A stretch of DNA of 52,883 bases from a candidate division WOR-1 bacterium RIFOXYB2_FULL_36_35 (GTDB lineage Bacteria; Margulisbacteria; WOR-1; XYC2-FULL-46-14; XYC2-FULL-37-10), in the NCBI GenBank assembly GCA_001771505.1, contig MEUA01000024.1:1-52883 (forward strand). The letters run 5' to 3'. The translations under genes were made by a program, and so were the position numbers. The notes below the pieces were generated by a model. It saw only the letters and a program-made list of their open reading frames with translations. It searched no databases and was not told the origin of the DNA. Below, piece by piece: positions 1,738 through 52,883 of the stretch; position 1 is the stretch's first letter, and the number at the start of each line of letters is the position of its first letter.

Positions 1738-1829
1738 TTTTTTCTCCTGACTTTTTCCTTTCTGTTCCTTACGCCCAAAGGGCAAGGGGAGCCGAAAGTG
1801 AGGGTATGATCTTACTTAAGATTTTCCCA

Positions 1830-1835
1830 ATTATA
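1830..1835 (-). promoter_or_regulatory. Candidate -10 box for the PurA-like gene
   Basis: On the minus strand this reads TATAAT. It sits in a perfect 13-bp inverted repeat (TATATATCGAAAA at 1832-1844 against 1961-1973), so the divergent gene to the right has a similar TATATAT motif facing the other way. The -35 is weak, so this is tentative. It would give an 85-90 nt leader. Confidence 0.35.
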
Positions 1836-1862
1836 TATCGAAAAAAATAGATTGAAATTTCA

Positions 1863-1883
1863 CCCCGATTATCCTAATCGGGG
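1863..1883. repeat. Dispersed palindromic repeat, solo copy
   Basis: Palindrome of the form CCCCGATT-N5-AATCGGGG in the divergent intergenic region. The surrounding sequence extends the hairpin, with AATAGAT on the left and ATCTATT on the right (about 1846-1900). One member of the window-wide family. Confidence 0.85.
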
Positions 1884-2019
1884 TTCATCTATTTTTATTG
1901 AATTTTTATTGAAATTATATGAAATTCATAGCGATAACTTTATGAAATTTAGACTTAAAATTTTCGATATATATGTAGAGAAAGGAGGCGTCTTATCTCC
2001 TTAGAGAGGCGAATATACT

Positions 2020-5000
2020 ATGATTAATTTTATGACGCCAATTAAAACAAGGATTTCATCCCTTTTCGGGATAAACAGGGGACAGTTTTGCGCAGAATTT
2101 AAAACTCCAGAGAGTCGCTTAAATCAGCTTATAGCTGGAAATTCCGGACATGAACGAAATCTTCTTGAAGTCATGTACAGACAGGGAATTTACGATGGGG
2201 AGGCTAGAACTTTTGCCGGAGTGAAAGAGTCTGATTTTTCTATTAAACTTTCCGGGGCAAAATTGGGGGAGGTTTTTTTAGCATGGGGTTCTGAAGCCTA
2301 TTTTAACGAATCACAATCTGCTCAAACTATACTTCAATATTTTACAGGGATTGAGCGCAAAAAATCCATTTTTGAAGGGTTCTCAAATCTCCTCTGGAGT
2401 TTGGCGCCGCAAAATAGAGGGGAAAGAGCATATGCTCAATTTGCTTTGCGAACAAGCAGGACGCTTAAGGCGCTTTATTATTTGTCGACTGAATATACAA
2501 ACCATGAAGATGTTGTAGGAACAACAAAAAGACCGCGTGTTGATTTTTATGGCGATGGATCAGGGTCTCCTCGAGAAGTAAAACTCCTTCTTCAAAAAGG
2601 GTTTTTATCAGGAAGACTTGATAAAGACTTTTTTACTAATATGGCAGATCAGATGGAGAGCCTTGTTGAAACAGGGATGAGAGAATGTGTCTCTCTTTCA
2701 AAAGAGGAGATAACTCTTTATCACGACATTGCACAACTGATTCGTGATATGGCAGGACAAAGAAGAATTATAGATCACTCAGAAATTATATCTCTTATCT
2801 CAAGATTTGAAAATCTTCCTAAATTCGAACAATTTTCTGTTTCAAGAAGATACAGGCGTCTGCAAAAAAGATATAACAGGGTTTTAACGGAATTAAAAAA
2901 TGTTGTCAGTGCAACTGTTGCTGTTTTGGAATCAAAAAAAGCTTCTGAGGAATTTGCTGAAGAAGATTACATAAAAGCGCAGGAGCATCTTTTGAAATTC
3001 ACAAAACGTTCTATATTGAGCATTAAAGATTTAATGGGGGAGATCAGGCTTAAAGATAAGAATATTGCCCTTGGATTAAGATTAAACGCTGCCTTTTGGA
3101 TTGCATTTAGTACTTTTGGCTATATATCTTACAGGACTCAAATGATGACCAGTTCATGGTCGACAATAACAGCAACTGTTACTGTTTTTCTTGCAAATCT
3201 TTTTTTGATGTTGCCTGAAGTACTTTTAATTGGAATGGGATGCTGGTATCAAGGTTCTGTGTTTACAGGCGCCAAAAAAGTGTTTGTTGAAGGCTGGCAG
3301 CCGATGACAAGAGAGAGTTTATCTGATGAGCCTGCTCATAGGCCGTCGTTTGCTTATTTTCTTACTTTAGCGGGAGCTGATCCCTCTGCTGCCGAGCATA
3401 ATATAAAAGAGCATGCAAAAGCTTGCATGTGCTATGGTGAAAATTCGCAGGTGTTTGTAGCAGCGTTGTCTTCCATGGCGTTTCACTGGCTGGCTGAAAC
3501 AGGATATGTTAGGGAGGGGACAGAGATTTGCGCTAAATATGCAATGGTAAAAGAGATACTTAATGATGTTCAGGGGCTATCAAACCTTACTCGAAATGAT
3601 CTTGCGTCGGCAATTGTTTATGAACATGTTCCTGTTGATTCCCTTCATCAGAGGCCTTATGTAATTCAAAGATGTGCCGGTTTTGCAAGAGAACCTCACA
3701 GGCTTGCGGAATATAAAATTGGAGGGATAGGAAGATATCTTGCAGCTAGGTTTGCAGAAGAGAATAAAGAGAATCCTGCCGGGCTTTATCAGTTTAGTAT
3801 GACACATGAGGAGCTTGTCGACTGGCTTATTGGGGTTGACATTGATCCTGTTAAAGCTGATTCTATTGCGGCAGGGATGCTTTGGGATATTAACTCTTTG
3901 ATGCGATGGTCAACTATTGCCGGCTTTTTTGGGTTGATATTTAGAGGGAACGGTTTAACAGAAGAAGGAAATAGGAGATTAAGCGAGGCTATTCAGAATG
4001 AGTTTGGTCTTGCGCCTGATGATGCGGAAGGGGTAATTGCAAAAATTACAAATGCTGCTGAAAATATAAAAGTTTGCGCTGCCGAGGTTACGGGTAGACG
4101 AGATCTTACTCCTCATAGTAGAGGTGTAAGACTGAAAAAAAGAAGAGAAGCTTTTAACCTTGTGTATGAAGCGATGGCAGAGTTTGCAAAAAACGCAAGA
4201 ACTTATAGTATGATGCCGGGGACTTTGGGCAAAAGACTCCATCATATTGTTCAGGATAAGATGTTTTTCCAGAAAGGAGTAAGTTGGCAGCGAATATTAG
4301 CGAGGGAACTCCCTCTTGCAGGAACACTTTATGGTTTGTTTAAGCCTACAAAAAAAATTGCAGATGAGATTGCCCGCGGGGTAAATGATCTTTATAAAAT
4401 TTCAGGGCGCATAGAGGCTGACATAGAAAAAGAATCTGTTGTTTCATATGAAGAAGCTGAAGCGAGCGCGTGGTTCGAAAGAAGAGCCGAAATTTTAGAA
4501 GTTGTAACTCAAGTTGGAGCCAGATATGGTTTAACGCTTCAGGAGATTGATGATATTGCAAATGGGATTATTCCCAGCATAGAAAGTTTTTATGGATTTA
4601 AAAAAGTTGCGGCTTTTGAACTTGCAAATTTTATGGCTGATAAACTTTCTCAAAATCCAACTGCCTCTTTTGAAGATTTTCTTAAATTTGTTTTTCTCTT
4701 TCCCGGAGGAGATAACGCGGGAGGGGTAAATATTGGACTAGCTGTTATTTTAGGTTACGGCGCAATGGATCTTAATATAGATACTTCTTCTTTACTATTC
4801 AAAAATATCCAGGCGATTCTGGAAAGCACTGTTGATCCGAAAGAGGAGAGAGATAATCTCATAAAAGCGTTGCAGGTAAACTTTAGAGAGGCTCCGGTTG
4901 CCGGAATAACAGGAAGCGTCACTGCCTCTTTGCCTATAGCGACAGAGATTGTTGACAATTACATAAAATATCATGAAGAGACGATCGGAAAGATGAGAAA

Positions 5001-18719: not shown

Positions 18720-18764
18720 CCCCGAGTATGATAATCAGAGTTGATTCACCGTGAATAATCGGGG
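18716..18764. repeat. Composite repeat at 3' end of TPR/barrel gene
   Basis: Begins TTAACCCCGAG, with its TTAA containing the stop codon of the upstream gene, carries a decayed palindrome, and ends GTGAATAATCGGGG. It lacks the 51-bp core seen in longer copies. Confidence 0.7.
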
Positions 18765-19894: not shown

Positions 19895-19988
19895 TTATTC
19901 ATACTTGGGAAAATTTTCAACACTTTGCTAGAATTCTGTTCGTCTATGAACCCCGATTATCCTAATCGGGGTGAATAATCGGGGTTAA
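19893..19988. repeat. MITE-like element with 51-bp core
   Basis: Left edge GATTATTCATAC (CCCC decayed), a 51-bp core beginning CATACTTGGGAAAATTTTC and ending GTCTATGAA, then an intact CCCCGATT-N5-AATCGGGG palindrome at 19951-19971 and a right end TGAATAATCGGGGTTAA. The core is closely similar to that at 31006-31056 and to the reverse complement of the copy at 52712-52790. Confidence 0.8.
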
Positions 19989-20417
19989 AAGAGAATTTTT
20001 AATATCCGAATTTATTTTTTTAAGTAGAGTTTTAACTGTGTTTTGATGATCTTTTAAAAATAGACTTATCTTTTCCCATTTTATATCTAAATATTCATGA
20101 GCCAAAATGTTCCTTAATTTTGCGATTTGAACTAAATTATTAATTTCTTCGTTCGAGAGAGAAAGAACCTCTCCTCCTTTTTTCATGATATCTGCATAAC
20201 TGTCTGGCATTTCCAGCCTTTTTTCACTGATAGCTATTTTAATGGCATCTATTGTGGCATTAGCTATGTTTTCTATTATTTTTTCAACCAACCTGCGTGA
20301 ATTTTTATCATTTAAATATGTCTTATAATCAAGACTGCAAAAAGATTGAAGATCCGCAATTTCATTTTCAGCAAAATCGGTGATTGCTATTAATCTGTGC
20401 CTCGCGCTTTCATGCAT
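19962..20417 (-). CDS. hepT: HepT-like HEPN toxin
   Basis: 151 aa. HEPN-domain RNase toxin of the HepT/MntA system. The R-x4-H motif with the downstream Tyr is present as RNILAHEY (Arg102, His107, Tyr109); in studied systems the Tyr is AMPylated by the MntA partner to silence the toxin. Its start overlaps the end of mntA by eight bases (ATGCATGA), so the two are co-translated. The last residues (TPIIHPD) are encoded entirely by a palindromic repeat, and the stop codon lies inside it, so the native C-terminus was replaced or extended by the element. The family assignment is strong from the motif and the partner gene. Confidence 0.85.
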   Translation of the reverse strand: MHESARHRLIAITDFAENEIADLQSFCSLDYKTYLNDKNSRRLVEKIIENIANATIDAIKIAISEKRLEMPDSYADIMKKGGEVLSLSNEEINNLVQIAKLRNILAHEYLDIKWEKISLFLKDHQNTVKTLLKKINSDIKNSLLTPIIHPD

Positions 20418-20805
20418 ATTTTAACCCCTTTTTAATCATCCACATCTCCTTTAAATCTTCTTGGAAATCCAAGGCGTCAAAAGAGACATTAAGCATATAT
20501 TTTAAATATAAATCCCAATCTTTTATTACCAAAGATTTCCCCCTTATAGCCTGCCATCCAATCATCTCTTTTGCATTGTTTAAGGTCAGTAATTCGACAT
20601 CTTTTTTTGAAATATCTTGAAGTTTATCCCAGACATTGTCAACATCTTTGGATGAAAATCCTTCTTTGAAATATGCGCCTATATCAAGATCTGAATCCTT
20701 CAAATTTGTCCCATTGGCATAAGATCCGTACATGAATGCAAAAATTACTCTATCTTCTTTTGCCAAATAGTTGCTCAAGCGTTTTTTTATTTCTTCAGTG
20801 GTCAT
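20410..20805 (-). CDS. mntA: MntA-like nucleotidyltransferase antitoxin
   Basis: 131 aa. Minimal nucleotidyltransferase with the GSX10DXD signature: Gly27-Ser28 and Asp39/Asp41 in MYGSYANGTNLKDSDLDIG. In characterised pairs this protein transfers AMP to the HEPN toxin encoded next to it. It is first in a two-gene operon, with hepT following and overlapping. The ATG at 20805 has no SD and a TATAAT seven bases upstream, suggesting a leaderless message. Confidence 0.85.
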   Translation of the reverse strand: MTTEEIKKRLSNYLAKEDRVIFAFMYGSYANGTNLKDSDLDIGAYFKEGFSSKDVDNVWDKLQDISKKDVELLTLNNAKEMIGWQAIRGKSLVIKDWDLYLKYMLNVSFDALDFQEDLKEMWMIKKGLKYA

Positions 20806-30801: not shown

Positions 30802-30905
30802 TTAACCCCGATTATTCACCCCGATTAGGATGATTGGGGTTCACGCCAGAATCAATAACTAATAAATTGTCAAGCATTACTTACGGTATGAATAATCGGG
30901 GTTAA
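30802..30905. repeat. MITE-like element, diverged 51-bp core
   Basis: Begins TTAACCCCGATTATTCA and ends TGAATAATCGGGGTTAA. It contains an internal palindrome (30819-30839, CCCCGATTA...TGATTGGGG) and a core that in reverse complement starts CATACCG and ends GTGAA. The core is also 51 bases long but diverged from the other copies. Confidence 0.7.
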
Positions 30906-30976
30906 ATGAAGTTTATGAAAGTATTTTTGAAATTCAGCAACATTTTTTCGATAAATAATATATATATAAAGGAAAT

Positions 30977-31114: not shown

Positions 31115-31888
31115 ATGGGTGTTTCTAGCCTTTCTGTCGGTGATACCCTTATTTCGAATAGATATACACAAAGAGAAATTGGCGTGCCTGTTCGGAGCAG
31201 AATAATAAAAACTGGGACTTCGTTGCCTCTAAAAAAACTTTGTGAATATGGCGGGCAGACAACAATTCTTGGCAGGGTAGAAATTCCATATAATATTATT
31301 TTAAATTTTGTCAGAGAAAAGTGTCTTAATAATGAAGATGTAAGAATTTTAGATGTTGGAATAGCGGCTAATATTCGTGATGCTAAAACGAGGGGTGTAA
31401 CGACAAGAGATATGGCGTGGAGATTTATTAAAAAAGGATATTTAACCGTGAGTGTGCATGGATTGGATGCTAATTTAGATTTTCTTGAGGAGATGGTCTA
31501 TTCTGAAATTGATATGCCTCCGCAATATCCACCATTTAATCTTCCAAATTTAACATATATAGAGGCAGACGCTACAAAAACTTTAGGGCTTTCAGAGAGA
31601 TCGGTGGATGTGGTTTTTTGTGGAAATGCCGTTGTATACATATATGAACAAGGGGGGATGGGCGCTATAGATAATTTTCTTGGCAATGTAAGATCAGTTT
31701 TAAAAGATGGAGGATTGTTTTTAAGTAACATTGCTTTTACTGAAATAGCAGACGGGGATTATCGACGATTTATCAAAAGAGACAATACCCAATGCATAGT
31801 TGATGACTCTTATTATTTGGATTTATTGGAATTTGCAAGAAAACGGAATGAGGCTAGGCATTTATGGGATATGTATCATTTAGGATAA
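31115..31888 (+). CDS. Class I SAM-dependent methyltransferase-like protein
   Basis: 257 aa. A Rossmann methyltransferase pattern is visible: ILDVGIAANI (motif I region, about 88-97), YIEADATKTLGL (acidic residue after strand 3), VDVVFCGNAVVYI (motif II) and VRSVLKDGGLFLSNIAF (motif III). The first 80 residues are unlike typical family members. Substrate unknown. Good SD (GGAGG) before ATG 31115. It lies isolated between repeat elements and the toxin-antitoxin-like block. Confidence 0.65.
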   Translation: MGVSSLSVGDTLISNRYTQREIGVPVRSRIIKTGTSLPLKKLCEYGGQTTILGRVEIPYNIILNFVREKCLNNEDVRILDVGIAANIRDAKTRGVTTRDMAWRFIKKGYLTVSVHGLDANLDFLEEMVYSEIDMPPQYPPFNLPNLTYIEADATKTLGLSERSVDVVFCGNAVVYIYEQGGMGAIDNFLGNVRSVLKDGGLFLSNIAFTEIADGDYRRFIKRDNTQCIVDDSYYLDLLEFARKRNEARHLWDMYHLG

Positions 31889-31993
31889 ATTCATTCTTTT
31901 TTTGTCGATAATTTCTTGGGAGGATTTTGTAATGTTAATAGATGGACATCAAAGCATTGTTGGATATATGAGGCAAGCATGGTTTGATTGCTA

Positions 31994-32032
31994 AAATTGC
32001 AATTCCTCTCCATTTCTGCTAAAATTTAAAAA
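31994..32032 (+). promoter_or_regulatory. Duplicated promoter, copy 1
   Basis: TTGCAA (31997-32002), 17-bp spacer, TAAAAT (32020-32025). The whole 39 bases are identical to 33390-33428 before fabH. Here it drives the small gene at 32049. Confidence 0.7.
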
Positions 32033-32048
32033 ATTGAGGTTGTTTATA

Positions 32049-32255
32049 GTGACAAAAAGTTTTAAATCCTACTTAAAATTTAGTGATCAAAAATACAGAG
32101 ATAAGTATTTAGTTTTTGCAAAAGGAAAATTTTTTAAAGCTGGTAAAAATCTTCTGAAGATTCTTCAAGAGTTCAAGAAAAAACATCCAAAAGAAACCCC
32201 TTTTATAGCAAAACCGCTTGGTCAGGGCAATTATGTTTTTCATGATTACTTTTAA
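32049..32255 (+). CDS. Small basic protein paired with retropepsin-like gene
   Basis: 68 aa, Lys/Phe-rich (KSFKSYLKFSDQKYRDKYLVFAKGKFF...). I do not recognise it. GTG 32049 is chosen because GAGGT lies eight bases upstream, just after the predicted transcription start; in-frame TTGs at 32034 and 32040 are alternatives. Its 3' end overlaps the start of the protease gene by about 20 bases, so the two are translationally coupled. Confidence 0.5.
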   Translation: MTKSFKSYLKFSDQKYRDKYLVFAKGKFFKAGKNLLKILQEFKKKHPKETPFIAKPLGQGNYVFHDYF

Positions 32256-32673
32256 TTACAGGAAAGAGAAAAATAGTCTTGGTGGAATTATCTTTCGTCC
32301 TGTAGCAGATGTTGTTTTGCAATCAAATATTGGCGCTGTTGAAGTCGGGATGTATATAGATTCGGGTGCGGATGTATCATTAATTCCTTTATCAATTGGC
32401 TTAGCCTTAGGATTTTCTCAAAAAGCTCATGAGATTAAAGAGATGAAAGGTATCTCGAGTGAACCAATCCCTTATGTCCTTAAAAAAGTTAATTTTATTT
32501 TTAACAACTTCAAAATCGAGGCAGAGATTGCATGGGCTCTTATAGAAGAAATTCCGATTTTATTAGGCAGAAAAGATATTTTTACAAGATTTAAAATAAT
32601 ATTTGATGAATCAAAAAAGAAAATTCTATTTAAGCCAGTGCCTGTTGTCTTAACGGCTCATGGAGCGTATTGA
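32233..32673 (+). CDS. Retropepsin-like aspartyl protease
   Basis: About 146 aa, the size of a single-lobe clan AA protease monomer. The catalytic motif is YIDSGADVSLIP with Asp43 in D-S-G-A, and the second conserved element ILLGRKDIFTRF matches the ILGRD-type strand-helix near the C-terminus of the family. Such proteases act as homodimers. No signal peptide or membrane helix is seen. Start is uncertain: ATG 32233 and ATG 32242 are both possible. It overlaps the small basic gene upstream, which suggests a two-gene cassette of unknown job. Confidence 0.65.
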   Translation: MFFMITFNYRKEKNSLGGIIFRPVADVVLQSNIGAVEVGMYIDSGADVSLIPLSIGLALGFSQKAHEIKEMKGISSEPIPYVLKKVNFIFNNFKIEAEIAWALIEEIPILLGRKDIFTRFKIIFDESKKKILFKPVPVVLTAHGAY

Positions 32674-32675
32674 AT

Positions 32676-32845
32676 ATGGTTGACACGCAAAAAACACCTT
32701 TATATGCAAAACCTTTAATAAGATTTGATTCTGATTGTTTTTCTCCTGAAATATTTAAAAAAGCTAAAATATGTCATATAAAGAAGAGATACAAAACAGC
32801 ATAAAGAATATATTGAACAAAGCAGATGAATTAGCCGTTTCTTAA
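32676..32845 (+). pseudogene. Possible frameshifted small gene
   Basis: A 42-codon frame starting at ATG 32676 (MVDTQKTPLYAKPLIRFDS...) runs into a different frame reading MSYKEEIQNSIKNILNKADELAVS (32771-32845), which looks like a natural helical C-terminus. One frameshift near 32770 would join them into a ~56-aa protein. No RBS is clear. Low confidence. Confidence 0.3.
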
Positions 32846-32852
32846 TAAAAAA

Positions 32853-32881
32853 TTGCAATTCTTTGTCTGGTTTGGTAAAAT
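32853..32881 (+). promoter_or_regulatory. Promoter of the antitoxin gene
   Basis: TTGCAA (32853-32858), 17-bp spacer, TAAAAT (32876-32881): same boxes and spacing as the 39-bp duplicated promoter but with a different spacer sequence. Confidence 0.6.
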
Positions 32882-32906
32882 GATTTTGTAAAAAGAGGTG
32901 TTTATT

Positions 32907-33143
32907 ATGCCAAAAGTTGAAGAAAAATTTAGAGTTATTCATTTGACGAGACCAACTGTCATTGAAGAACCGATGGTTTTAATTTCTATCGAAGAATATG
33001 AAGAGTTGCTTGAAGATGCAGAAATCGCAAAAAGTAAGACTTTAACAAAAGAAATTGAGCAAGCCAGAAAAAATTTCAAAAAAGGGAAAGGCATCTTGTT
33101 GGAAGATGCAATAAAGTCAGTTGAAAAACATCAAACTAGATAA
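32907..33143 (+). CDS. Phd/YefM-type antitoxin
   Basis: 78 aa. The central MVLISIEEYEELLED resembles the Phd/YefM antitoxin core in which a strand leads into a helix, followed by a charged, probably disordered C-terminus that would wrap the toxin. ATG 32907 with AAGAGG upstream fits. The toxin-coding frame begins within its last codons (TTG 33121), the usual overlap for RelE/ParE modules. Because that toxin is broken, this antitoxin is now an orphan. Confidence 0.65.
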   Translation: MPKVEEKFRVIHLTRPTVIEEPMVLISIEEYEELLEDAEIAKSKTLTKEIEQARKNFKKGKGILLEDAIKSVEKHQTR

Positions 33144-33375
33144 AAAAGCCTAAAAAAATCTTGCCAAATTATTCCACAGCGATAAACACATCTATTTTAA
33201 ACTTAAGGAAGCCTTATTTTCTTTAGCGAAGGCTCCTTTCCCTGGAAAACCTTTGGTGGGGGATAAAAAGGGTTGTTTTAGAATTAGAGTTGGTGATTAT
33301 CGTATAATATACGAAATTGCCGGAGATGAAATCTGGATAATTAAAATAGGACATCGTAAAGATGTTTATAGATAA
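33121..33375 (+). pseudogene. RelE/ParE-family toxin with in-frame nonsense codon
   Basis: An 84-codon frame ending ...FRIRVGDYRIIYEIAGDEIWIIKIGHRKDVYR is a clear RelE/ParE toxin C-terminus (YRIIYE and IGHRKDVYR are diagnostic). Reading back in frame, it aligns to the family through KNLAKLFHSDKHIYFKLKEALFSLAKAPFPGKPLVGD. Codon 11 is TAA (33151-33153), where relatives usually have Glu or Lys in SKKAEKNL. There is no ATG, GTG or TTG between that stop and codon ~42. The upstream piece (TTG 33121, KNIKLDKKA) is in frame and overlaps the antitoxin. The toxin is therefore probably inactivated by a single substitution; sequencing error is possible. Confidence 0.7.
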
Positions 33376-33389
33376 AATTTCTTTTTGTC

Positions 33390-33428
33390 AAATTGCAATT
33401 CCTCTCCATTTCTGCTAAAATTTAAAAA
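33390..33428 (+). promoter_or_regulatory. Duplicated promoter, copy 2 (fabH operon)
   Basis: TTGCAA (33393-33398), 17-bp spacer, TAAAAT (33416-33421), in a 39-base block identical to 31994-32032. Predicted start ~33428, giving an 18-nt leader without SD before fabH. Confidence 0.7.
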
Positions 33429-33445
33429 CATTTTCGTTTTAAATC

Positions 33446-34411
33446 ATGAGAGCAAAAATTATAGGCACAGGATCCTATCTTCCTGAAAAAATTGTGACAA
33501 ATGATGACCTTTCAAAGATGGTTGAAACTTCAGATGAATGGATTACAACCCGTACAGGCATAAAGGCGCGGAGAGTTACGGATTACGGAACAACAACTTC
33601 AGATTTAGCTGTAAATGCGGCTAAAAAAGCTATTGAATCATCTGGAATTAATCCTTTAGAATTAGATTTTATTATAGTGGCAACCTGTACTCCTGATACT
33701 CTTTTTCCGTCTGTTGCTTGTATTCTTCAAGATAGACTTGGCGCAAAAAATGCAGGCGCCCTTGATGTTTCTGCTGCCTGTTCAGGGTTTAATTTTGCAT
33801 TGGCAACCGCTGCAAGTTTTATAGAATCCGGCAAATATAAAAATATTCTTGTCGTTGGCGCTGATACTTTAACAAAATATCTTGATTGGCAGGACAGAAA
33901 CACTTGTGTCCTTTTTGGAGATGGGGCGGGGGCTGTTGTTCTCCAAGCGACGGAAGAGGATTGTGGGATATTAAGCAGTTATCTGAAAGCAAAGGGGGAG
34001 GGGGGACAGTTTCTTGTTATGCCGGGAGGGGGATCTAAAGATCCTGAACTTAGAAATAGCAGATTTATTAACATGAATGGCAAAGAGGTTTTTAAATTTG
34101 CGGTTAAAGCTCTTGAAGAGTCTGTTGTTGAGGCCTTGAAACTTGCCCACCTTGAGCTTGAAGATATAGATTTTTTAATTCCTCATCAGGCAAATATCAG
34201 GATAATAGATCATGTCTTAAAGAAATTTAACTTGCCAAAAGATAAAGTTTATGTTAATTTGCAGAATTACGGGAACACGTCGGCAGCTTCTGTCTCGATA
34301 GCACTTGACGAAGCTGTTAAAATAAATAAAATTAAAAAAGGCGACATAGTTGTCCTTTCTGGCTTTGGAGCCGGACTTACGTATGCCGCCAATGTTTTAA
34401 AATGGGGGTAG
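33446..34411 (+). CDS. fabH: 3-oxoacyl-ACP synthase III (FabH)
   Basis: 321 aa. It condenses acetyl-CoA (or branched acyl-CoA) with malonyl-ACP to start type II fatty-acid synthesis. The catalytic triad is in place: Cys112 in SAACSGF, His247 in IPHQAN and Asn277 in NYGNTSA, with the family start MRAKIIGTGSYLPEKIVTN. First gene of the fab/etf operon; the leader is short and no SD is seen. The next gene starts six bases after its stop. Confidence 0.95.
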   Translation: MRAKIIGTGSYLPEKIVTNDDLSKMVETSDEWITTRTGIKARRVTDYGTTTSDLAVNAAKKAIESSGINPLELDFIIVATCTPDTLFPSVACILQDRLGAKNAGALDVSAACSGFNFALATAASFIESGKYKNILVVGADTLTKYLDWQDRNTCVLFGDGAGAVVLQATEEDCGILSSYLKAKGEGGQFLVMPGGGSKDPELRNSRFINMNGKEVFKFAVKALEESVVEALKLAHLELEDIDFLIPHQANIRIIDHVLKKFNLPKDKVYVNLQNYGNTSAASVSIALDEAVKINKIKKGDIVVLSGFGAGLTYAANVLKWG

Positions 34412-34417
34412 TATAAA

Positions 34418-35575
34418 ATGTTGGATTATGGTTTTACAGAAGAACAGATAATGGTTAGAGAATTGGTGAGAAAAATAGCGCTTGAAAAGGTGTTGCCTGT
34501 TAGGGCGGAGCTTGATGAGAAAGGGATATTCCCGAAAGATATTTTAAAAGTTTTGTCGGATGCGGATCTTTGCGGTTTATATGTTCCTGAAGAGTACGGA
34601 GGGTTCGGGCAGGATATACTCTCCTTTTGTATTGCGACAGAAGAATTGAGTCGAGTATGTGGCGGAGTTGGCGTTACCTTTGCAGCTTCGGCTCTTGGAG
34701 CTAGTCCAATTTTGCTCTTTGGAACCGAAGAACAAAAGAAAAAATATATGCCAGAGATTGCTAAGGGGACCAAACTTGCCGCTTTTGGTTTGACAGAAGC
34801 AAATGCCGGTTCAGATGCCGGAGGGATTGAAACCACAGCCGTAAAAGATGGGGATTATTATATTTTAAATGGAACAAAGCAGTGGATAACAAATGGGGGG
34901 GAGGCGGATACTTATACTGTTGTTGCGATGACAGATAAGAAAAAAGGCGCTCGTGGAGCAACGGCTTTTATCTTGGAAAAAGGGACTCCTGGTTTTGATT
35001 TTGGTAAAAAAGAAGATAAGATGGGAATCCGCTGTTCCGCAACTCGTGAGCTGGTTTTCCAAAACTGTAAAATCAACAAAGAGCAGATTTTAGGCAAAGA
35101 AGGGATGGGTTTTATAGTTGCTATGAAGACCCTTGATATGACTCGACCTGGAATAGGCGCTCAAGCTGTTGGGATTGCTCAAGGAGCGCTTGATGAGGCT
35201 GTTAAATATGCGAAAGAGAGAATTCAATTTGGCAGACCGATTATCGCTCTTCAGGCAATTCAGCATATGCTTGCTGATATGGCTACGCGTATAGAGGCTT
35301 CTCGTGCTTTGGTTTACAGTGTTGCAAAAGCCATGAATAATGGGGCAAAGGATTTTACAAAAGAGGCTAGTATGGCAAAGCTTTTTGCTTCTGATACTGC
35401 GATGTATGTTACGACTGAAGCAGTTCAAATTTTGGGCGGGTACGGATATATGAAAGAATATCCTGTTGAAAAAATGATGCGAGATGCAAAAATTACTCAG
35501 ATATACGAAGGGACCAATCAGATACAGAGAAATCAAATAGGATTGGCTTTGATTAAAGAGAGTGCTAGGAGATAG
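34418..35575 (+). CDS. Acyl-CoA dehydrogenase (Bcd/CarC-like)
   Basis: 385 aa, normal length for short-chain acyl-CoA dehydrogenases. FAD-contact motifs FGLTEANAGSDAGG and YEGTNQIQRNQIG are present, the latter including the catalytic Glu of short-chain members. It carries electrons to or from an electron-transfer flavoprotein. Being followed by etfB and a ferredoxin-fused etfA, it is a good candidate for the enoyl-CoA-reducing subunit of an electron-bifurcating complex (like butyryl-CoA or caffeyl-CoA reductase). SD GGGGG(T) overlaps the end of fabH. Confidence 0.88.
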   Translation: MLDYGFTEEQIMVRELVRKIALEKVLPVRAELDEKGIFPKDILKVLSDADLCGLYVPEEYGGFGQDILSFCIATEELSRVCGGVGVTFAASALGASPILLFGTEEQKKKYMPEIAKGTKLAAFGLTEANAGSDAGGIETTAVKDGDYYILNGTKQWITNGGEADTYTVVAMTDKKKGARGATAFILEKGTPGFDFGKKEDKMGIRCSATRELVFQNCKINKEQILGKEGMGFIVAMKTLDMTRPGIGAQAVGIAQGALDEAVKYAKERIQFGRPIIALQAIQHMLADMATRIEASRALVYSVAKAMNNGAKDFTKEASMAKLFASDTAMYVTTEAVQILGGYGYMKEYPVEKMMRDAKITQIYEGTNQIQRNQIGLALIKESARR

Positions 35576-35589
35576 ATATTACATTCCGA

Positions 35590-35665
35590 GTATAGCGAGG
35601 TTGTGTCTTCCAATGTTTTGCTTCGCTAGATGTTTCATTTTGTTCAGCATGACAAAATCTAAAGC
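35590..35665. repeat. Possible dispersed repeat between acyl-CoA dehydrogenase and etfB
   Basis: In reverse complement it starts TGTCATGCTGAAC and ends near CTCGGAAT, the look of short genome-dispersed repeats found in many bacteria. Only one copy is seen in the window, so the call is tentative. Confidence 0.3.
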
Positions 35666-35678
35666 TTAGAGGGAATAA

Positions 35679-36464
35679 ATGGACATTATAGTATGTATTA
35701 AACAGGTTCCTGATACGACAGAGGTTAAAATTAATCCTGAAACAAATACTTTAGTTCGTGAAGGGGTTCCTTCTATAATAAACCCTTTTGACGAAAACGC
35801 AGTTGAAGAGGCGCTTCGTCTACGCGAAAAAAATGGGGGGAAGGTGACTGTTATTACAATGGGGCCCCCACAGGCGAAAGAGGCGTTAAAACAGGTTATT
35901 GCCATGGGTGTTGACGAGGTCATTTTGGTTTCAGATAGAGCTTTTGCTGGATCTGATACATGGGCTACTTCTTATACTTTAGCTCAAGCCATAAAGAAAA
36001 TCGGAAAATTTGATCTTATTTTTTGTGGCAAACAGGCAATTGATGGGGATACCGCTCAAGTTGGGCCTGGAATTGCAGAATGGCTTAATATTTCTCAAGT
36101 TACTTTTGCAGTGAAGATTGAGCTTACAGGGACTACTATTAAGGTTGAAAGGCTTCTTGAAGAGTTAAATGAGGTGGTCATAGCCCCTCTTCCTTGTTTG
36201 CTTACAGTTGTTAAACAGATAAACGAACCAAGGGTCCCATCTCTCAAGGGGATGATGAAAGCTAAAAAAGCTGAAATCAAAACATTAAGCGCCGCAGATA
36301 TAGGAGCAGACATTCAAAAGACAGGGCTTAATGGCTCTCCTACCAGAGTTGTAAAAATATTTACACCTCCGCAAAAAGGGAGTGGAGAGATAATTTCAGG
36401 CGAAACGACAGAAGAGATAGTTTCTAATGTTGTGGCAAAACTTCAAGAGAGGAAACTTGTCTGA
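35679..36464 (+). CDS. etfB: Electron-transfer flavoprotein beta subunit
   Basis: 261 aa. Starts MDIIVCIKQVPDTTEVKI, the standard EtfB opening, with the nucleotide loop segment DLIFCGKQAIDGDTAQVGP. In bifurcating Etfs this subunit binds the FAD that oxidises NADH and splits electrons. SD GAGGG before ATG 35679. Its stop overlaps the etfA start as TGATG. Confidence 0.92.
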   Translation: MDIIVCIKQVPDTTEVKINPETNTLVREGVPSIINPFDENAVEEALRLREKNGGKVTVITMGPPQAKEALKQVIAMGVDEVILVSDRAFAGSDTWATSYTLAQAIKKIGKFDLIFCGKQAIDGDTAQVGPGIAEWLNISQVTFAVKIELTGTTIKVERLLEELNEVVIAPLPCLLTVVKQINEPRVPSLKGMMKAKKAEIKTLSAADIGADIQKTGLNGSPTRVVKIFTPPQKGSGEIISGETTEEIVSNVVAKLQERKLV

Positions 36465-37669
36465 TGGGAATAAAAGTCTTACTTGATAAATGTATAGGAT
36501 GTACTCTTTGTGTTAAAGCTTGTCCTTTTGCTGCAATTAGTATGCAGGACAAAAAAGCTGTGATTGATCTTAATACGTGTACTCTTTGCGGCGCTTGTCT
36601 TCCTGTTTGTAAGTTTAATGCCATAGAACTTGAAAAAAAAGAAGCTGTTTCAGGTACTATTGATAAAAGTTCTTATAAGAACATATGGGTTTTTGTTGAA
36701 CATCATGAGGGAGATGTCCATCCTGTATCTTATGAGTTGCTTACAGAAGGAAGAAAACTTGCGGAGGATTTAAACTGTGAGGTTGCGGCAGTTTTGCTTG
36801 GAGATGATGCTATAGAAAAAGAGATTGACACTCTTTTTTCTTACGGCGCTGATAAAGTTTACTTGTCGACACATTCAGAGTTTAAAGAATATAGAACAGC
36901 TCCCTATTCCAGAACAGTTACAGAGATGATAAAAAAATTTAAGCCGGAGATATTTTTGATTGGAGCTACAACTACGGGCAGGGATTTAGCTGCCAGGTTG
37001 GCAATTAGAGTAAATGCCGGGCTTACCGCGGATTGTACCGGGTTATCGATTGATATGCAACAAAAAATTTTAAATCAGACACGTCCCGCGTTTGGCGGTA
37101 ATATTATGGCTACAATCATATCTCCAAACCACAGACCTCAGATGGCAACGGTTAGGCCGAAAGTTTTTAAAAGGGTCAAGATTCAGGGGGCAAGCGCCAG
37201 GGGGGAACTTATCAAGTTTGATCCTGTGATAAATCAAGAGGATTTAGCCGTTAAGATTTTAGAGGCCATAAAAGATGAAAGCGCCAAGGTGAATCTTCAA
37301 GAGGCAGAAATTATTGTTTCTGGCGGGCGAGGTATTTGTGACCCTAAAAATTTTAAATTGATTGAGGAACTTGCAAGTTGTCTTTCTGGCGCTGTTGGGG
37401 CATCTCGTGCAACTGTTGATGCCGGATGGATTTCTGCTCATCATCAAGTGGGACAGACAGGGAAAACCGTTGCTCCAAAGGTTTATATAGCATGTGGTAT
37501 TTCAGGTAAAATTCAACATTTAGTAGGGATGCAAGGGTCAGATACCATTATAGCTATAAACAAAGATCCTGATGCTCCAATCTTTAAAGTTGCGACATAT
37601 GGAATAATTGGAGATTGTTTAGAAATAATTCCGGCTCTTATAAAAAAGATTAAGGAGATTAAAGGTTGA
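36464..37669 (+). CDS. etfA: EtfA with N-terminal 2[4Fe-4S] ferredoxin domain
   Basis: 401 aa. Residues 7-60 are a bacterial-type ferredoxin: CIGCTLCVKACP and CTLCGACLPVCK give eight cysteines for two [4Fe-4S] clusters. The rest is EtfA, with the FAD-binding C-terminus GASRATVDAGW...HQVGQTGKTVAPKVYIACGISGKIQH...INKDPDAPIF. Ferredoxin-fused EtfA subunits are known from caffeyl-CoA reductase (CarE) and lactate dehydrogenase (LctC) of Acetobacterium, both electron-bifurcating. This implies ferredoxin reduction coupled to acyl-CoA reduction. The stop overlaps the fabD start. Confidence 0.92.
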   Translation: MGIKVLLDKCIGCTLCVKACPFAAISMQDKKAVIDLNTCTLCGACLPVCKFNAIELEKKEAVSGTIDKSSYKNIWVFVEHHEGDVHPVSYELLTEGRKLAEDLNCEVAAVLLGDDAIEKEIDTLFSYGADKVYLSTHSEFKEYRTAPYSRTVTEMIKKFKPEIFLIGATTTGRDLAARLAIRVNAGLTADCTGLSIDMQQKILNQTRPAFGGNIMATIISPNHRPQMATVRPKVFKRVKIQGASARGELIKFDPVINQEDLAVKILEAIKDESAKVNLQEAEIIVSGGRGICDPKNFKLIEELASCLSGAVGASRATVDAGWISAHHQVGQTGKTVAPKVYIACGISGKIQHLVGMQGSDTIIAINKDPDAPIFKVATYGIIGDCLEIIPALIKKIKEIKG

Positions 37670-38568
37670 AAACCGCGTTTATATTCCCTGGGCAGGGGAG
37701 CCAGCTTGTAGGTATGGGAAAAGGGTTTGCGGAGGCTCTTTTAGACCAAGCAAATGAAGTTTTAGGAATTGACTTAAAAAGGATCTGTTTTGAAGGTTCC
37801 CAAGAGGAACTTAAAAAGACAGAGATAAGCCAACCTGCAATATTGACAGTAAGCATAGCTGCTTTTGATATTTTAAAAAGCAAAAATATAAAACCTGATT
37901 ATGTTGCAGGGCATTCTCTTGGAGAATATTCTGCTTTGGTTGCAGCTGAATCTATCAACTTCAAGGATGCGGTTAGACTGGTTTACTTGAGAGGAAAGTT
38001 TATGCAGGAGGCTGTTCCTATAGGACAAGGGGCTATGGCGGCTATTTTGATGCTTGATAAAGAACAAATCAAAGAATGTTGCGATAAAGCAAAAGATAAA
38101 GGCGTTGTTCAAATAGCAAATTTTAATGCTCCGGGCCAGATTGTGATATCAGGAGAGAGAGAGGCTGTTTTAGCTGCTTCTGCTTTTTGTAAAGAAGCGG
38201 GGGCAAAAAGAATAATTCCTCTTGCTGTTTCTGCCCCGTTTCATAGTATTTTAATGCAAAAGGCGGCGGATAAGTTGAAAATAGAGCTTGATAAAATAAA
38301 TATAAAAGATGCTAATGTCCCTCTTGTTTCTAATATTGATGCGGAGCCTGTTACGTCTGCCTTAAAAATAAAAGAAAATTTATACAGTCAAGTGGTGGGA
38401 TCTGTTTTGTGGGAGGATTCTGTCAAAAAAATGGTCTCTCTTGGAGTTGAAAAATTTATTGAAGTTGGTCCGGGTAATGTATTGTGCGGACTGGTTAAAA
38501 AGATTGATCCTACTTTGGTTAGGGTTCAAAATTTTGAATCCGTACTACTAGAAGGCTTTGGGAGGTAA
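37666..38568 (+). CDS. fabD: Malonyl-CoA:ACP transacylase (FabD)
   Basis: 300 aa. Transfers malonyl from CoA to ACP. Starts KTAFIFPGQGSQLVGMG; the nucleophile is Ser84 in GHSLGEYSAL, with the His in SAPFHS completing the dyad. TTG 37666 is supported as start by AAGGAG eight bases upstream and a four-base overlap with the etfA stop. fabG begins two bases after its stop. Confidence 0.93.
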   Translation: MKTAFIFPGQGSQLVGMGKGFAEALLDQANEVLGIDLKRICFEGSQEELKKTEISQPAILTVSIAAFDILKSKNIKPDYVAGHSLGEYSALVAAESINFKDAVRLVYLRGKFMQEAVPIGQGAMAAILMLDKEQIKECCDKAKDKGVVQIANFNAPGQIVISGEREAVLAASAFCKEAGAKRIIPLAVSAPFHSILMQKAADKLKIELDKINIKDANVPLVSNIDAEPVTSALKIKENLYSQVVGSVLWEDSVKKMVSLGVEKFIEVGPGNVLCGLVKKIDPTLVRVQNFESVLLEGFGR

Positions 38569-38570
38569 TT

Positions 38571-39317
38571 ATGAAATTAAAAGATAAAGTAGCTTTTGTT
38601 ACAGGGGCTGCCCAGGGGATTGGAAAGTCTATTGCGGAAGCTTTGGCGAGAGAAGGGGCGGATATCATAGTTTCTGATATCAACCTTGAACTTGCGGTGC
38701 AAACTGCCGCTGAGATAGAAAAAATCGGGGTTAAAACAATGGCGCTTAAAACAAATGTTTCCGATTTTTGTGACGTTGAAAACGGAGTTGAGCAATCAGT
38801 TAAACAGATGGGGAAAATTGATATTCTTGTAAATAATGCTGGCATTACGCGGGATACATTGCTTATGAGAATGAAAAAAGAGGATTGGGACGCAGTGATC
38901 AATGTAAACTTAACTGGTGTTTTTAATTGCACTAAAATTATTTCTGCTTTGATGATTAAGCAACGTTCTGGTAAAATAGTCAGTATTGCGTCTATTGTTG
39001 GAGAGATGGGGAATGTGGGACAGACAAATTATGCTGCTGCCAAAGCAGGGGTTATTGGGATGACAAAGACAGTGGCTCGGGAGCTAGCTTCAAGAGGTAT
39101 TTGCGTAAACGCTGTAGCTCCGGGATTTATTCAAACGGCAATGACAGACAAGCTTAGCGAAGATGTTAAAAATAAAATGGTCGAAGTTATTCCATTAAAG
39201 AGAATGGGAACGCCTACAGAAGTTGCAAAGGCTGTCTTGTTTTTAGCTGGGCCTGATTCAGATTATATTACGGGCCAAATCATCAATGTTAACGGTGGAA
39301 TGCTAATGAATACCTGA
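38571..39317 (+). CDS. fabG: 3-oxoacyl-ACP reductase (FabG)
   Basis: 248 aa. Reduces 3-oxoacyl-ACP with NADPH. Short-chain dehydrogenase motifs: TGAAQGIG cofactor loop, NNAGITRD, SIASIVGEMGN with the Ser, YAAAKAG with Tyr and Lys, and the C-terminal GQIINVNGGM typical of FabG. SD GGGAGG before ATG. Confidence 0.95.
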   Translation: MKLKDKVAFVTGAAQGIGKSIAEALAREGADIIVSDINLELAVQTAAEIEKIGVKTMALKTNVSDFCDVENGVEQSVKQMGKIDILVNNAGITRDTLLMRMKKEDWDAVINVNLTGVFNCTKIISALMIKQRSGKIVSIASIVGEMGNVGQTNYAAAKAGVIGMTKTVARELASRGICVNAVAPGFIQTAMTDKLSEDVKNKMVEVIPLKRMGTPTEVAKAVLFLAGPDSDYITGQIINVNGGMLMNT

Positions 39318-39320
39318 TAA

Positions 39321-39368
39321 AGTGTACAGTGAACAGTAAAAACAAGAAATAGCTTACTACTGTACACT
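39321..39368 (+). promoter_or_regulatory. Inverted repeat before acpP
   Basis: AGTGTACAGT (39321-39330) and ACTGTACACT (39359-39368) are perfect 10-bp complements separated by 28 bases, and AACTGTAAAC-like variants follow. It could be a hairpin that adjusts acpP expression within the operon or a small repeat insertion. Confidence 0.5.
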
Positions 39369-39414
39369 GTAAACAATAAACTGTAAACTTATTACAAAAA
39401 AGGAGGAAAAGTAA

Positions 39415-39657
39415 ATGAACGAGAATGAAGTGTTAGAAAAGGTAAAAAAGGTAGTTGTAGAACAGTTGGGAGTTTCTGAGGCGGAGGCAAAAAAGGAGTC
39501 TTCCTATGTTGATGATTTAGGAGCTGATTCTTTGGATACGGTAGAATTGGTAATGGCATTGGAAGAGGCTTTTGGTACTGAAATCCCCGATGAAGATGCT
39601 GAAAAGATTAAAACGGTTGGGGATACGGTAACTTATATAATGTCACATCAAAAATAA
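39415..39657 (+). CDS. acpP: Acyl carrier protein
   Basis: 80 aa, acidic. Ser39 in [17 protein letters not shown] is the phosphopantetheine attachment site. Strong SD (AAAGGAGG). Carries the growing acyl chain for the surrounding Fab enzymes. Confidence 0.97.
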
Positions 39658-39679
39658 ATTTTAATAAGGTTATAATTAT

Positions 39680-40636
39680 TTGAAATTACCTCAATTAAAA
39701 ATAGGAGATTTAATCGCGCAGGTGCCGATTATTCAGGGGGGGATGGCAGTTAGGATTTCCACGGGAAATTTGGCAGGTGCTGTTGCTGCAGCACAAGGGA
39801 TAGGTGTAATTGGCGCTTCAGGGATGACTTTTGATGAATTGGCAGATGAAATAAGGATTGCAAGAAAGAAAGCTTTAGATGGTATTATCGCCATAAATAT
39901 TATGTTTGCTGCTCGTGAGTTTTTGGGGATTGTAAATACAGCAATAAAAGAAAAGATTGACTTTATAATTACAGGAGCCGGATTTTCTAGAGATATTTTT
40001 AGAATAGGCCGTGAAAAAAATATTCCCATTGTTCCTATAGTATCTAGCGCTAAGCTTGCTAAACTTGCCGAAAAGAGCGGAGCGTCCGCGGTTATTGTTG
40101 AAGGGAAAGAGGCTGGCGGACATCTTGGAACTGATAGATCGATATTTGATATTCTTCCGGAAATTTTAAAAGCAGTGAAGATTCCTGTTATTGCTGCAGG
40201 GGGATTGGTAACAGGGGAACTTATTGCAAAAGCTTTTAGAATGGGTGCTTCTGGCGTACAGCTTGCTACAAGGTTTGTTTTATCAGAAGAGTGTAATGCT
40301 TCTTTGCCTTTCAAAAAAAGATACCAGGATGCCAGAGAAGAGGATGTTGTTTTAATTGAATCGCCGGTTGGTATGCCTGGTAGGGCTTTGCGTACCCCTT
40401 TTGTAGATGAAATTATATCTGGGACCGCGCCAAAACCTGTTGGTTGTGACTATTGCTTGAAAAATTGTTCTCTGAAATATTGCATAATACAAGCATTAAT
40501 CCGTTCTCAAAAGGGTGACATTGACAATGGAATTGTTTTTTCCGGTGAAAAGGTTTGGCAGTTAAAAGATCGTAGAATTAAGCCGGCTAAAGAGATAATG
40601 AATGATATTATTTCCGAAATCGAGGAGGTCCCTTGA
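39680..40636 (+). CDS. fabK: FMN-dependent enoyl-ACP reductase (FabK) family
   Basis: 318 aa. TIM-barrel flavoprotein of the FabK/nitronate monooxygenase group: PIIQGGMAVRIS at the start, VEGKEAGGHLG, and AAGGLVTGELIAKAFRMGASGVQLATRFVLSEEC for FMN phosphate binding. FabK reduces enoyl-ACP in the last step of each elongation cycle, and no fabI is nearby. The C-terminal part has clustered cysteines (CDYCLKNCSLKYC), possibly a metal or Fe-S site. TTG 39680 is the likely start, with a TAAGG about ten bases before. Its end overlaps fabF (TGATG). Confidence 0.85.
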   Translation: MKLPQLKIGDLIAQVPIIQGGMAVRISTGNLAGAVAAAQGIGVIGASGMTFDELADEIRIARKKALDGIIAINIMFAAREFLGIVNTAIKEKIDFIITGAGFSRDIFRIGREKNIPIVPIVSSAKLAKLAEKSGASAVIVEGKEAGGHLGTDRSIFDILPEILKAVKIPVIAAGGLVTGELIAKAFRMGASGVQLATRFVLSEECNASLPFKKRYQDAREEDVVLIESPVGMPGRALRTPFVDEIISGTAPKPVGCDYCLKNCSLKYCIIQALIRSQKGDIDNGIVFSGEKVWQLKDRRIKPAKEIMNDIISEIEEVP

Positions 40637-41880
40637 TGGAGAAAAGAGTTGTTGTAACGGGGTTGGGAATTGTTTCTCCTATTGGTTTGAACGTGGATGA
40701 ACACTTTACAAATCTTGTTAAAGGAAAAAGTGGCATTGGCAAAATAGACCGTTTTGACGTCTCTTCTTTTTCTTGTCATATAGCGGGCTTAGTGAAGGGA
40801 TTTGATCCTTCTTTATATATGGATAGAAAAGAGGCAAAAAAAATTGTTAATTTTATTAAATATGCAATAGCAGCTGCAAAGATGGCTTTTTCTGATTCTG
40901 CATTCTCAATAAATGAGAGCAATGCTGATCGTGTGGGTGTTATTATCGGTTCTGGAATTGGTGGTATTGAATTTTTAGAAGAGCAGGTTAATGTTTTGAG
41001 AGATAAGGGGCCAAGCCGACTCTCACCATTTACTGTTCCTTATATGATAACAAACATGGCAGCGGGTTTGGTCTCTATACATCTTGGAGCTAAAGGGCCA
41101 AACAGTTGTGTTGTGACAGCTTGCGCTTCAGGGACCCATTGTATTGGTGATTCCTATAGAATATTGCAAAGAGGAGATGCTGATGTCATGATTGCCGGCG
41201 GAGCTGAGTGTGCTATTTCTCCTATTGGAATTGGTAGTTTTGCTGCGGCAAGAGCTCTTTCTACTTCTTTTAACGCTGATCCGGAAAAGGCTTCTCGTCC
41301 TTTTGACAAAAAAAGAGATGGTTTTGTTATGGGAGAAGGGTCAGGAATCGTTATATTGGAAGAGTTGGAACATGCCAAAGCGCGCGCTGCTAAAATTTAT
41401 GCTGAAATTGTGGGCTACGGAATGAGTGGAGACGCAAATCATATAACGGCTCCAGCGCCTGGTGGGGAGGGGGCTGTACGAGCTATGCTTATTGCATTAA
41501 AAGATGCTAAGCTTAATCCTTCTGATGTTGATTATATAAATGCTCATGGAACATCTACAAAGCTAAATGATGAGTATGAGACAATGGCTATTAAAACGGC
41601 GTTTGGCGAACATGCAAAAAAAGTAGCAATCAGTTCCAATAAATCTATGACAGGTCATCTTTTGGGGGCTGCGGGAGCCATTGAAGCAGTTTCTACTGTT
41701 TTATCTATTGTTAATGATATTGCGCCTCCTACCATTAATCAGGAAGAAGCTGATCCTATTTGTGATTTGGATTATGTTCCAAATGTTGCTAGACAAATGA
41801 AAATTAATGTTGCGATTTCAAATTCACTTGGATTTGGCGGGCATAACGCTGTTATAGCTTTCAAAAAATATAAAGCGTAG
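40636..41880 (+). CDS. fabF: 3-oxoacyl-ACP synthase II (FabF)
   Basis: 414 aa. Elongating condensing enzyme. Cys163 in VTACASGTHC, His in NAHGTSTKLND and His in NKSMTGHLLGAAG form the Cys-His-His triad; the family GFGGHNA near the C-terminus is present. GAGGAGG supports ATG 40636, which overlaps the fabK stop. Last gene of the operon. Confidence 0.96.
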   Translation: MEKRVVVTGLGIVSPIGLNVDEHFTNLVKGKSGIGKIDRFDVSSFSCHIAGLVKGFDPSLYMDRKEAKKIVNFIKYAIAAAKMAFSDSAFSINESNADRVGVIIGSGIGGIEFLEEQVNVLRDKGPSRLSPFTVPYMITNMAAGLVSIHLGAKGPNSCVVTACASGTHCIGDSYRILQRGDADVMIAGGAECAISPIGIGSFAAARALSTSFNADPEKASRPFDKKRDGFVMGEGSGIVILEELEHAKARAAKIYAEIVGYGMSGDANHITAPAPGGEGAVRAMLIALKDAKLNPSDVDYINAHGTSTKLNDEYETMAIKTAFGEHAKKVAISSNKSMTGHLLGAAGAIEAVSTVLSIVNDIAPPTINQEEADPICDLDYVPNVARQMKINVAISNSLGFGGHNAVIAFKKYKA

Positions 41881-52711: not shown

Positions 52712-52790
52712 TTAACCCCGATTATTCATAGACTAACAAAATTTTAACAGTCTATTGGAAAATTCCTTAGGTATGAATAATCGGGGTTAA
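52712..52790. repeat. Complete 79-bp MITE-like element
   Basis: Perfect 19-bp terminal inverted repeats (TTAACCCCGATTATTCATA on both ends). The reverse complement of the interior is a 51-bp core starting CATACCTAAGGAATTTTCC and ending GTCTATGAA, homologous to the copies at 19893 and 30977. No coding capacity. Confidence 0.85.
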
Positions 52791-52883
52791 CAACATAAAA
52801 TAATGACTTTGTGAATTTTCCATCCTGGATTTCTCTGCCCTCACCCAATCTTGAAATAGTTTGAGAACTGGTAGGCATTTCAC

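Follow-up and report, generated by a model that had tools for sequence, protein, structure and literature searches.

Two identical 39-bp sequences bracket a 1.4-kb block of accessory genes directly upstream of fabH in a candidate division WOR-1 bacterium, and the question raised by this locus is how such genes came to be placed between two copies of what resembles the promoter of a fatty-acid synthesis operon. To our knowledge, how toxin-antitoxin (TA) genes get into chromosomes when no plasmid, phage, or integron is involved is not well understood. We analyzed the complete stretch of 52,883 nucleotides that contains the block (hereafter the window) and compared it with related genomes. All coordinates refer to the window, and fabH as well as all features of the block and its edges are on the + strand. 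A preceding sequence-only reading had proposed that recombination between the two outer repeats would precisely delete the block and leave the operon with a promoter.

The first copy of the repeat (P1, 31994–32032) and the second copy (P3, 33390–33428), which precedes fabH as that reading had stated, form an exact direct repeat (39 of 39 positions in a sequence comparison). Direct repeats reached at most 17 bases when the region 31500–34000 was simulated 300 times with a first-order Markov model, compared to the 39 bases observed. In P1, a putative −35 box (TTGCAA, 31997–32002) is separated by a 17-bp spacer from an extended −10 element (TGCTAAAAT, with TAAAAT at 32020–32025), which reads TGC TAAAAT in the 39-bp repeat, and a perfect palindrome of 10 bases (AATTGCAATT, 31995–32004) contains the −35 region. 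The corresponding candidate boxes of P3, the predicted fabH promoter, are located at 33393–33398 (−35) and 33416–33421 (−10). A third putative promoter (P2, 32851–32881) has the same palindrome and extended −10 element and another spacer. The description of this promoter, placed near 32853, as sharing the boxes only was accurate, as all 18 of 18 box positions (AATTGCAATT, TG, and TAAAAT) are kept and the spacer is largely different. That P2 belongs to the pattern had been missed by the sequence-only reading: each cassette of the block starts with a promoter copy. The next well-supported start codon, the GTG of the first gene in the block, follows 16 nt after the P1 repeat; the ATG of the antitoxin gene is located 25 nt after the P2 box and the ATG of fabH 17 nt after the P3 repeat.

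When up to three mismatches were allowed, the 39-mer was found at only two sites, P1 and P3, in the genome (67 contigs, 1.95 Mb, draft). A looser pattern consisting of ATTGCAATT, 12–14 bases, and TGNTAAAAT had exactly three matches in the genome, at P1 (31996), P2 (32852), and P3 (33392). Across 57 genomes, the 31-base box pattern occurred with zero mismatches three times in the window genome (G000) and once in the genome G002, where it precedes fabH. A promoter element that is common throughout the genome can be ruled out, because the 39-mer is restricted to two sites and the box pattern to three; the repeat is a local duplication, as had been supposed.

Pfam searches and a predicted fold confirmed the gene content of the block that had been read from the sequence, i.e., a small basic gene, a retropepsin-like gene, and a TA pair with a broken toxin gene. 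The small basic gene (32049–32255, GTG start) is DUF5678-like (Pfam PF18929, E = 9e-4, below the gathering cut-off); nothing relevant on DUF5678 was found in the literature searched. The neighboring gene (about 32242–32673) encodes a retropepsin-like aspartic protease with the motifs DSGAD and LLGR. Its Pfam assignment is weak and is supported by the predicted fold, since the AlphaFold2 model is confident (pLDDT 88.7) and its best matches in the PDB are retropepsins (5c9f, E = 1.8e-5). In an alignment of 13 relatives (A1), the D and G of DSGAD and LGR are invariant. Based on the D-T/S-G motif and the modeled fold, the gene product would thus be classified as retropepsin-like. It also matched the candidate model PDC-M52B of PADLOC (E = 2.4e-9), as did 6 of the 13 protease relatives (best E = 2.2e-13), whereas no PADLOC model was matched by the DUF5678-like partner at E = 0.1. 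Of the PADLOC phage-defence candidate PDC-M52, component B was the one matched, by the retropepsin-like protein. No match to the protease was found in plasmids, phages, and viral contigs, ruling out its mobile carriage by known plasmids or phages.

The second cassette comprises an intact Phd/YefM-like antitoxin gene (32907–33143; Pfam PF02604, E = 0.0024; NCBIfam YefM, E = 3.7e-4; both under the cut-off), which is 57% identical to a gene in G018:C67, and a broken toxin gene of the ParE/RelE family (33130–33375). The toxin frame matched PF05016 over its full length (33130–33369; 55.9 bits versus a cut-off of 23) across a single in-frame TAA (33151–33153), and the part 3′ of this stop codon still matched PF05016 with E = 5.2e-13. 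The antitoxin-toxin gene pair and the ParE family score above the Pfam cut-off are thus like type II systems of the ParDE, RelBE, or YefM-YoeB kind, whereas the stop-interrupted toxin gene and an antitoxin far from the cut-offs of these families are unlike them. Elsewhere in the window, a nucleotidyltransferase-HEPN pair resembling a TA system (19962–20805, − strand, named by eye) has no bracketing repeat (best score 9).

A stretch with short broken frames between the two cassettes (32670–32850) had been taken for a decayed gene; its three + strand frames yielded nothing better than E = 0.39 against the loci of relatives compared. At the left junction, a frame of 20 codons preceded by GGAGG (31932–31994, read from the sequence) ends with the first base of P1. 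It is possibly a truncated gene, and it had no relative in the loci compared. Neither a transposase nor an integrase frame was detected in the block based on the list of open reading frames and a Pfam scan, and the inverted repeats found in a repeat comparison of the block were chance-like ones only. The window also contains a dispersed MITE- or REPIN-like element of about 80–105 bases with 17-base inverted ends (TTAACCCCGATTATTCA ... TGAATAATCGGGGTTAA) at 30803–30906 and 52712–52791, with further ends near 18753, 19973, 29802, 31064, 48294, and 49579. This element was present in three other samples of the same genome (L192–L194) and absent from the stretches sampled in G001 and in G002.

The gene fabH (33446–34411; ACP_syn_III families), which is displaced by the block, is the first gene of an operon extending to about 41880. 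A scan of genome contigs for fabH retrieved nothing close (best 61% identity). The operon (33446–41880) includes genes for an acyl-CoA dehydrogenase and for both electron-transfer flavoproteins among the genes of fatty-acid synthesis. Its gene order is conserved in G002, a member of another genus of the same family with a FabH of 79% identity. In G002, an efflux-protein-like gene is followed by one promoter and then by fabH, without any block; the palindrome and the extended −10 element of this promoter match exactly and its spacer has diverged. In most of the class relatives inspected, a plsX-like gene ends directly 5′ of fabH (gene names assigned by eye). The single promoter with exact boxes in front of fabH in G002 indicates that the element is the fabH promoter of this lineage and that P1 and P2 are additions, and the 39-bp element is therefore likely to be a promoter of the fatty-acid operon, in agreement with the earlier proposal. 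Of the deleted form that the sequence-only reading had suggested looking for in relatives, G002 provides the single copy and the absence of the block. As the gene upstream of fabH differs between the two genera, G002 counts as a relative with one copy but does not represent a clean empty site.

The closest relatives of the DUF5678-protease pair separate the coding sequences from the promoter. At G002:C59, the two proteins are 75% (DUF5678) and 80% (protease) identical to the pair in the window, and the pair at G005:C4 is also close (60% identity for the DUF5678-like protein). Homology at the DNA level starts at the start codon (32050) for G002:C59 and at the ribosome binding site (RBS; 32043) for G005, which indicates that the promoter is local and that the coding pair travels. 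The pair at G002:C59 is located between two 48-base repeats (96% identity) which consist of the 3′ end of a tRNA-His gene and downstream sequence, and the pair in G005 between two exact 20-base repeats, the second of which precedes the next gene. In G005, a DUF5678-protease pair is situated inside the corresponding fabH gene cluster.

Repeats bracketing cassettes of these types were then scored across related genomes in 300-base flanks with ungapped scoring, using a threshold of at least 18 that was picked after the scores were known. Protease loci were found at 18 places in 31 genomes of the class and at one more in the phylum; three loci at contig ends were dropped, resulting in 16 units. 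The 31 class genomes also contributed 29 ParE units, and 346 masked units served as controls, replacing an earlier set of 332 units that still held protease loci. The threshold was reached by 7 of the 16 DUF5678-retropepsin units and by 5 of the 29 ParE toxin-antitoxin units, compared to 4 of the 346 control units; 9 of 16 and 24 of 29 units, respectively, were without such a repeat. These counts come from a small number of loci in genomes that are all drafts, with mechanically called genes and starts and with several gene names assigned by eye. Fisher’s tests against the controls gave p = 2e-8 for the protease units (7/16) and p = 1e-4 for the ParE units (5/26, three units at loci of the protease set having been dropped). 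One protease unit (G018:C40) lies between repeats of another origin, which were judged by eye to be the template and variable repeats that belong to a diversity-generating retroelement (DGR), and the counts are thus also given without this locus (6/15, p = 3e-7). The best-scoring control was a YefM-YoeB-like unit (named by eye) that the mask had missed, with a 51-bp bracket containing TATAAT. The protease unit of the window is not among the seven, as its 300-bp flanks include only P2 and score 13; the whole block scores 39.

This recurrence around other TA-like cassettes in related genomes had also been missed by the sequence-only reading. At G023:C54, two unrelated antitoxin-ParE pairs each follow the same 58 bp (3 differences), comprising a promoter and an RBS; the repeats end 0 and 1 base 5′ of the ATG, and the second copy starts 4 bases past the stop codon of the first toxin gene. 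At G001:C21, the same 35 bp (1 difference), again a promoter and an RBS ending at the ATG, stand before an antitoxin-ParE pair as well as before a HicB-HicA-like pair. At G002:C9, a DUF5678-protease pair, an AbrB-RelE-like pair, and a queE-like gene each come after a copy of one promoter, and a 77-base remnant of a DUF5678 gene lies 5′ of the last copy. The window genome itself has a second such locus (G000:C42), where a DUF5678-protease pair and then an antitoxin-RelE pair are both behind copies of one promoter, the spacers of which differ like those of P2 and P1/P3. Arrays of at least two cassettes were found at G002:C9, G023:C54, and G003:C89. For 6 of 11 repeat pairs, both copies are followed within 45 bases, on the same strand, by the start codon of a frame of at least 50 codons (one of the six depends on TTG starts). 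The repeats of 13 loci share no common sequence beyond short −10-like words. One attachment site shared by all loci can be ruled out, as the repeats are unrelated from locus to locus.

Repeats other than promoters occurred at some loci: G018:C63 (coding sequence), G018:C73 (5′ end of a larB-like gene), G002:C59 (3′ end of tRNA-His), and G018:C40 (DGR). The repeat at G018:C63 (L186) is exact over 27 bases (1406–1432 and 2181–2207 in the numbering of L159) and is found in the 3′ ends of two unrelated genes flanking a DUF5678-protease pair, one of them serine-recombinase-like (by eye). At G018:C73 (L190; approximately 1185–1204 and 1869–1888), a larB-like gene is found in full behind the DUF5678-protease pair, and its start is present a second time, as a short truncated copy, before the pair. 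At G018:C40 (L181; about 1171–3216), the pair lies between the apparent variable and template repeats of the diversity-generating retroelement, which includes a reverse transcriptase (by eye).

We consider it rather probable that the block consists of TA-like cassettes which were inserted at the fabH promoter with a long target duplication. One or two coding cassettes, the DUF5678-retropepsin pair and the Phd/YefM-like antitoxin with its ParE toxin, would have entered at the fabH promoter; the inserted DNA would have carried little or no promoter of its own, and the duplicated target would have been the promoter. One promoter copy would then drive the cassette, while the displaced fatty-acid operon would keep another. 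We infer insertion as the cause of the duplication, and likewise the agent and the order of events; template switching during repair or illegitimate recombination is a guess at a possible agent. Since the same arrangement is found around other TA-like cassettes in relatives, insertion with promoter duplication becomes the more likely account, and deletion a possible consequence only. Unequal crossing-over between the copies would permit the tandem gain as well as the clean loss of cassettes. The block deletion by recombination between P1 and P3 that had been put forward earlier fits these data and has the standing of a proposal.

The three promoter copies constrain the history of the block. 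The identity of P1 and P3 must be recent, or the two copies must have been kept equal, and neither one simple event nor a simple stepwise insertion predicts this identity together with the divergence of P2. In alignments with P3, the spacers of P2 and of the G002 promoter had about equal numbers of matches, near background. The spacer of P2 is thus as diverged as that of the G002 promoter, suggesting that P2 is an old copy or that selection has acted on its boxes alone. The identity of P1 and P3 next to a different P2 would be explained by recombination between the two outer copies, which would also allow a clean loss. Accordingly, the locus could be an old array (promoter-cassette-promoter-cassette-promoter-fabH) in which P1 and P3 are kept identical by recombination, either through repeated tandem gain and loss or through excision of the whole block and its re-entry via P1 and P3, so that the block would be unstable today. 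This would account for the divergence of P2, which is about as large as that of the promoter in G002, and multi-cassette arrays are known from the three loci named above. However, 39 bp is short for homologous recombination and the identity of P1 and P3 may simply be recent, and we regard such an old array as doubtful.

A regulator of fatty-acid synthesis that binds the palindrome AATTGCAATT, with selection having placed its operator before several genes, appears less probable still. Although their spacers differ, P2, P3, and the fabH promoter of G002 agree in all 10 bases of the palindrome and in the extended −10 element, and shared regulation may explain the survival of the boxes of P2. Yet it leaves the identity of spacer and flank over the 39 bp of P1 and P3 unexplained, and no regulon is visible, as no further site in the genome has the pattern.

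Cassettes moved by site-specific recombination, in a system of the integron or Xer/dif type that would use the repeat as its attachment site, are very unlikely. Arrays of small TA genes between near-identical repeats do resemble integron cassettes, and in chromosomal integron arrays with TA cassettes, near-identical repeats likewise alternate with small accessory cassettes. The attC sites of integrons are hairpins that are common to the array system and located behind the gene. In contrast, the repeats described here stand before the gene as promoters and are not related from one locus to the next, sharing only a −10-like box, with no common attC-type sites, and the block contains no integrase frame. 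Chance or an assembly artefact, conceivable for a draft genome in 67 contigs, is hardly credible given the maximum of 17 bases in the simulations, the intact relatives of the cassettes at other loci, and similar arrangements in other genomes.

The proposed insertion at the fabH promoter with a long target duplication has its nearest counterpart in restriction-modification (RM) systems. Reportedly, Nobusato et al. in 2000 and Furuta et al. in 2010 dealt with the insertion of RM genes with long target duplication. In two articles, this form of insertion is described for RM genes (PMC3874152, PMC3031569), and direct-repeat flanked forms are stated to be able to amplify through unequal crossing-over (PMC3031569). 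Like these inserts, the loci described here contain addiction-type units with no transposase and with long site-specific repeats of variable length. Unlike them, the cargo is a ParE-type TA pair and a DUF5678-retropepsin pair instead of RM genes, and the repeats are shorter (about 20–58 bp), several of them being promoters directly before start codons. Because the cargo is not RM, the block would represent a variant that works like long target duplication and not a described case; what is new compared to described cases is the cargo and a duplicated target that is often a promoter, the edge of which lies close to the start codon. Insertion sequences and composite transposons differ from the block, which has no transposase, no terminal inverted repeats, and no short target duplication. 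No description of a promoter-duplicating TA insertion was found in the literature searched, the coverage of which is thin for subscription journals.

The recurrence of an insert with a duplicated promoter around TA-like genes suggests a shared way of settling in genomes. A more far-reaching version, which we put forward tentatively and hold to be improbable as a whole, is that a specific route in this class places promoterless TA-like cassettes between a promoter and its start codon and copies the promoter, leaving one copy each to the cassette and to the displaced gene. Arrays would then grow and shrink via the repeats, and at fabH the accessory genes would have been wired to the control of fatty-acid synthesis. 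With the promoter duplicated, expression would be possible for the newcomer as well as for the displaced gene, and this anatomy would explain how a newcomer could be expressed immediately without silencing the gene it displaces. A coding-only cassette between two copies of a host promoter would thus be a searchable footprint for the entry of such genes and for their precise loss.
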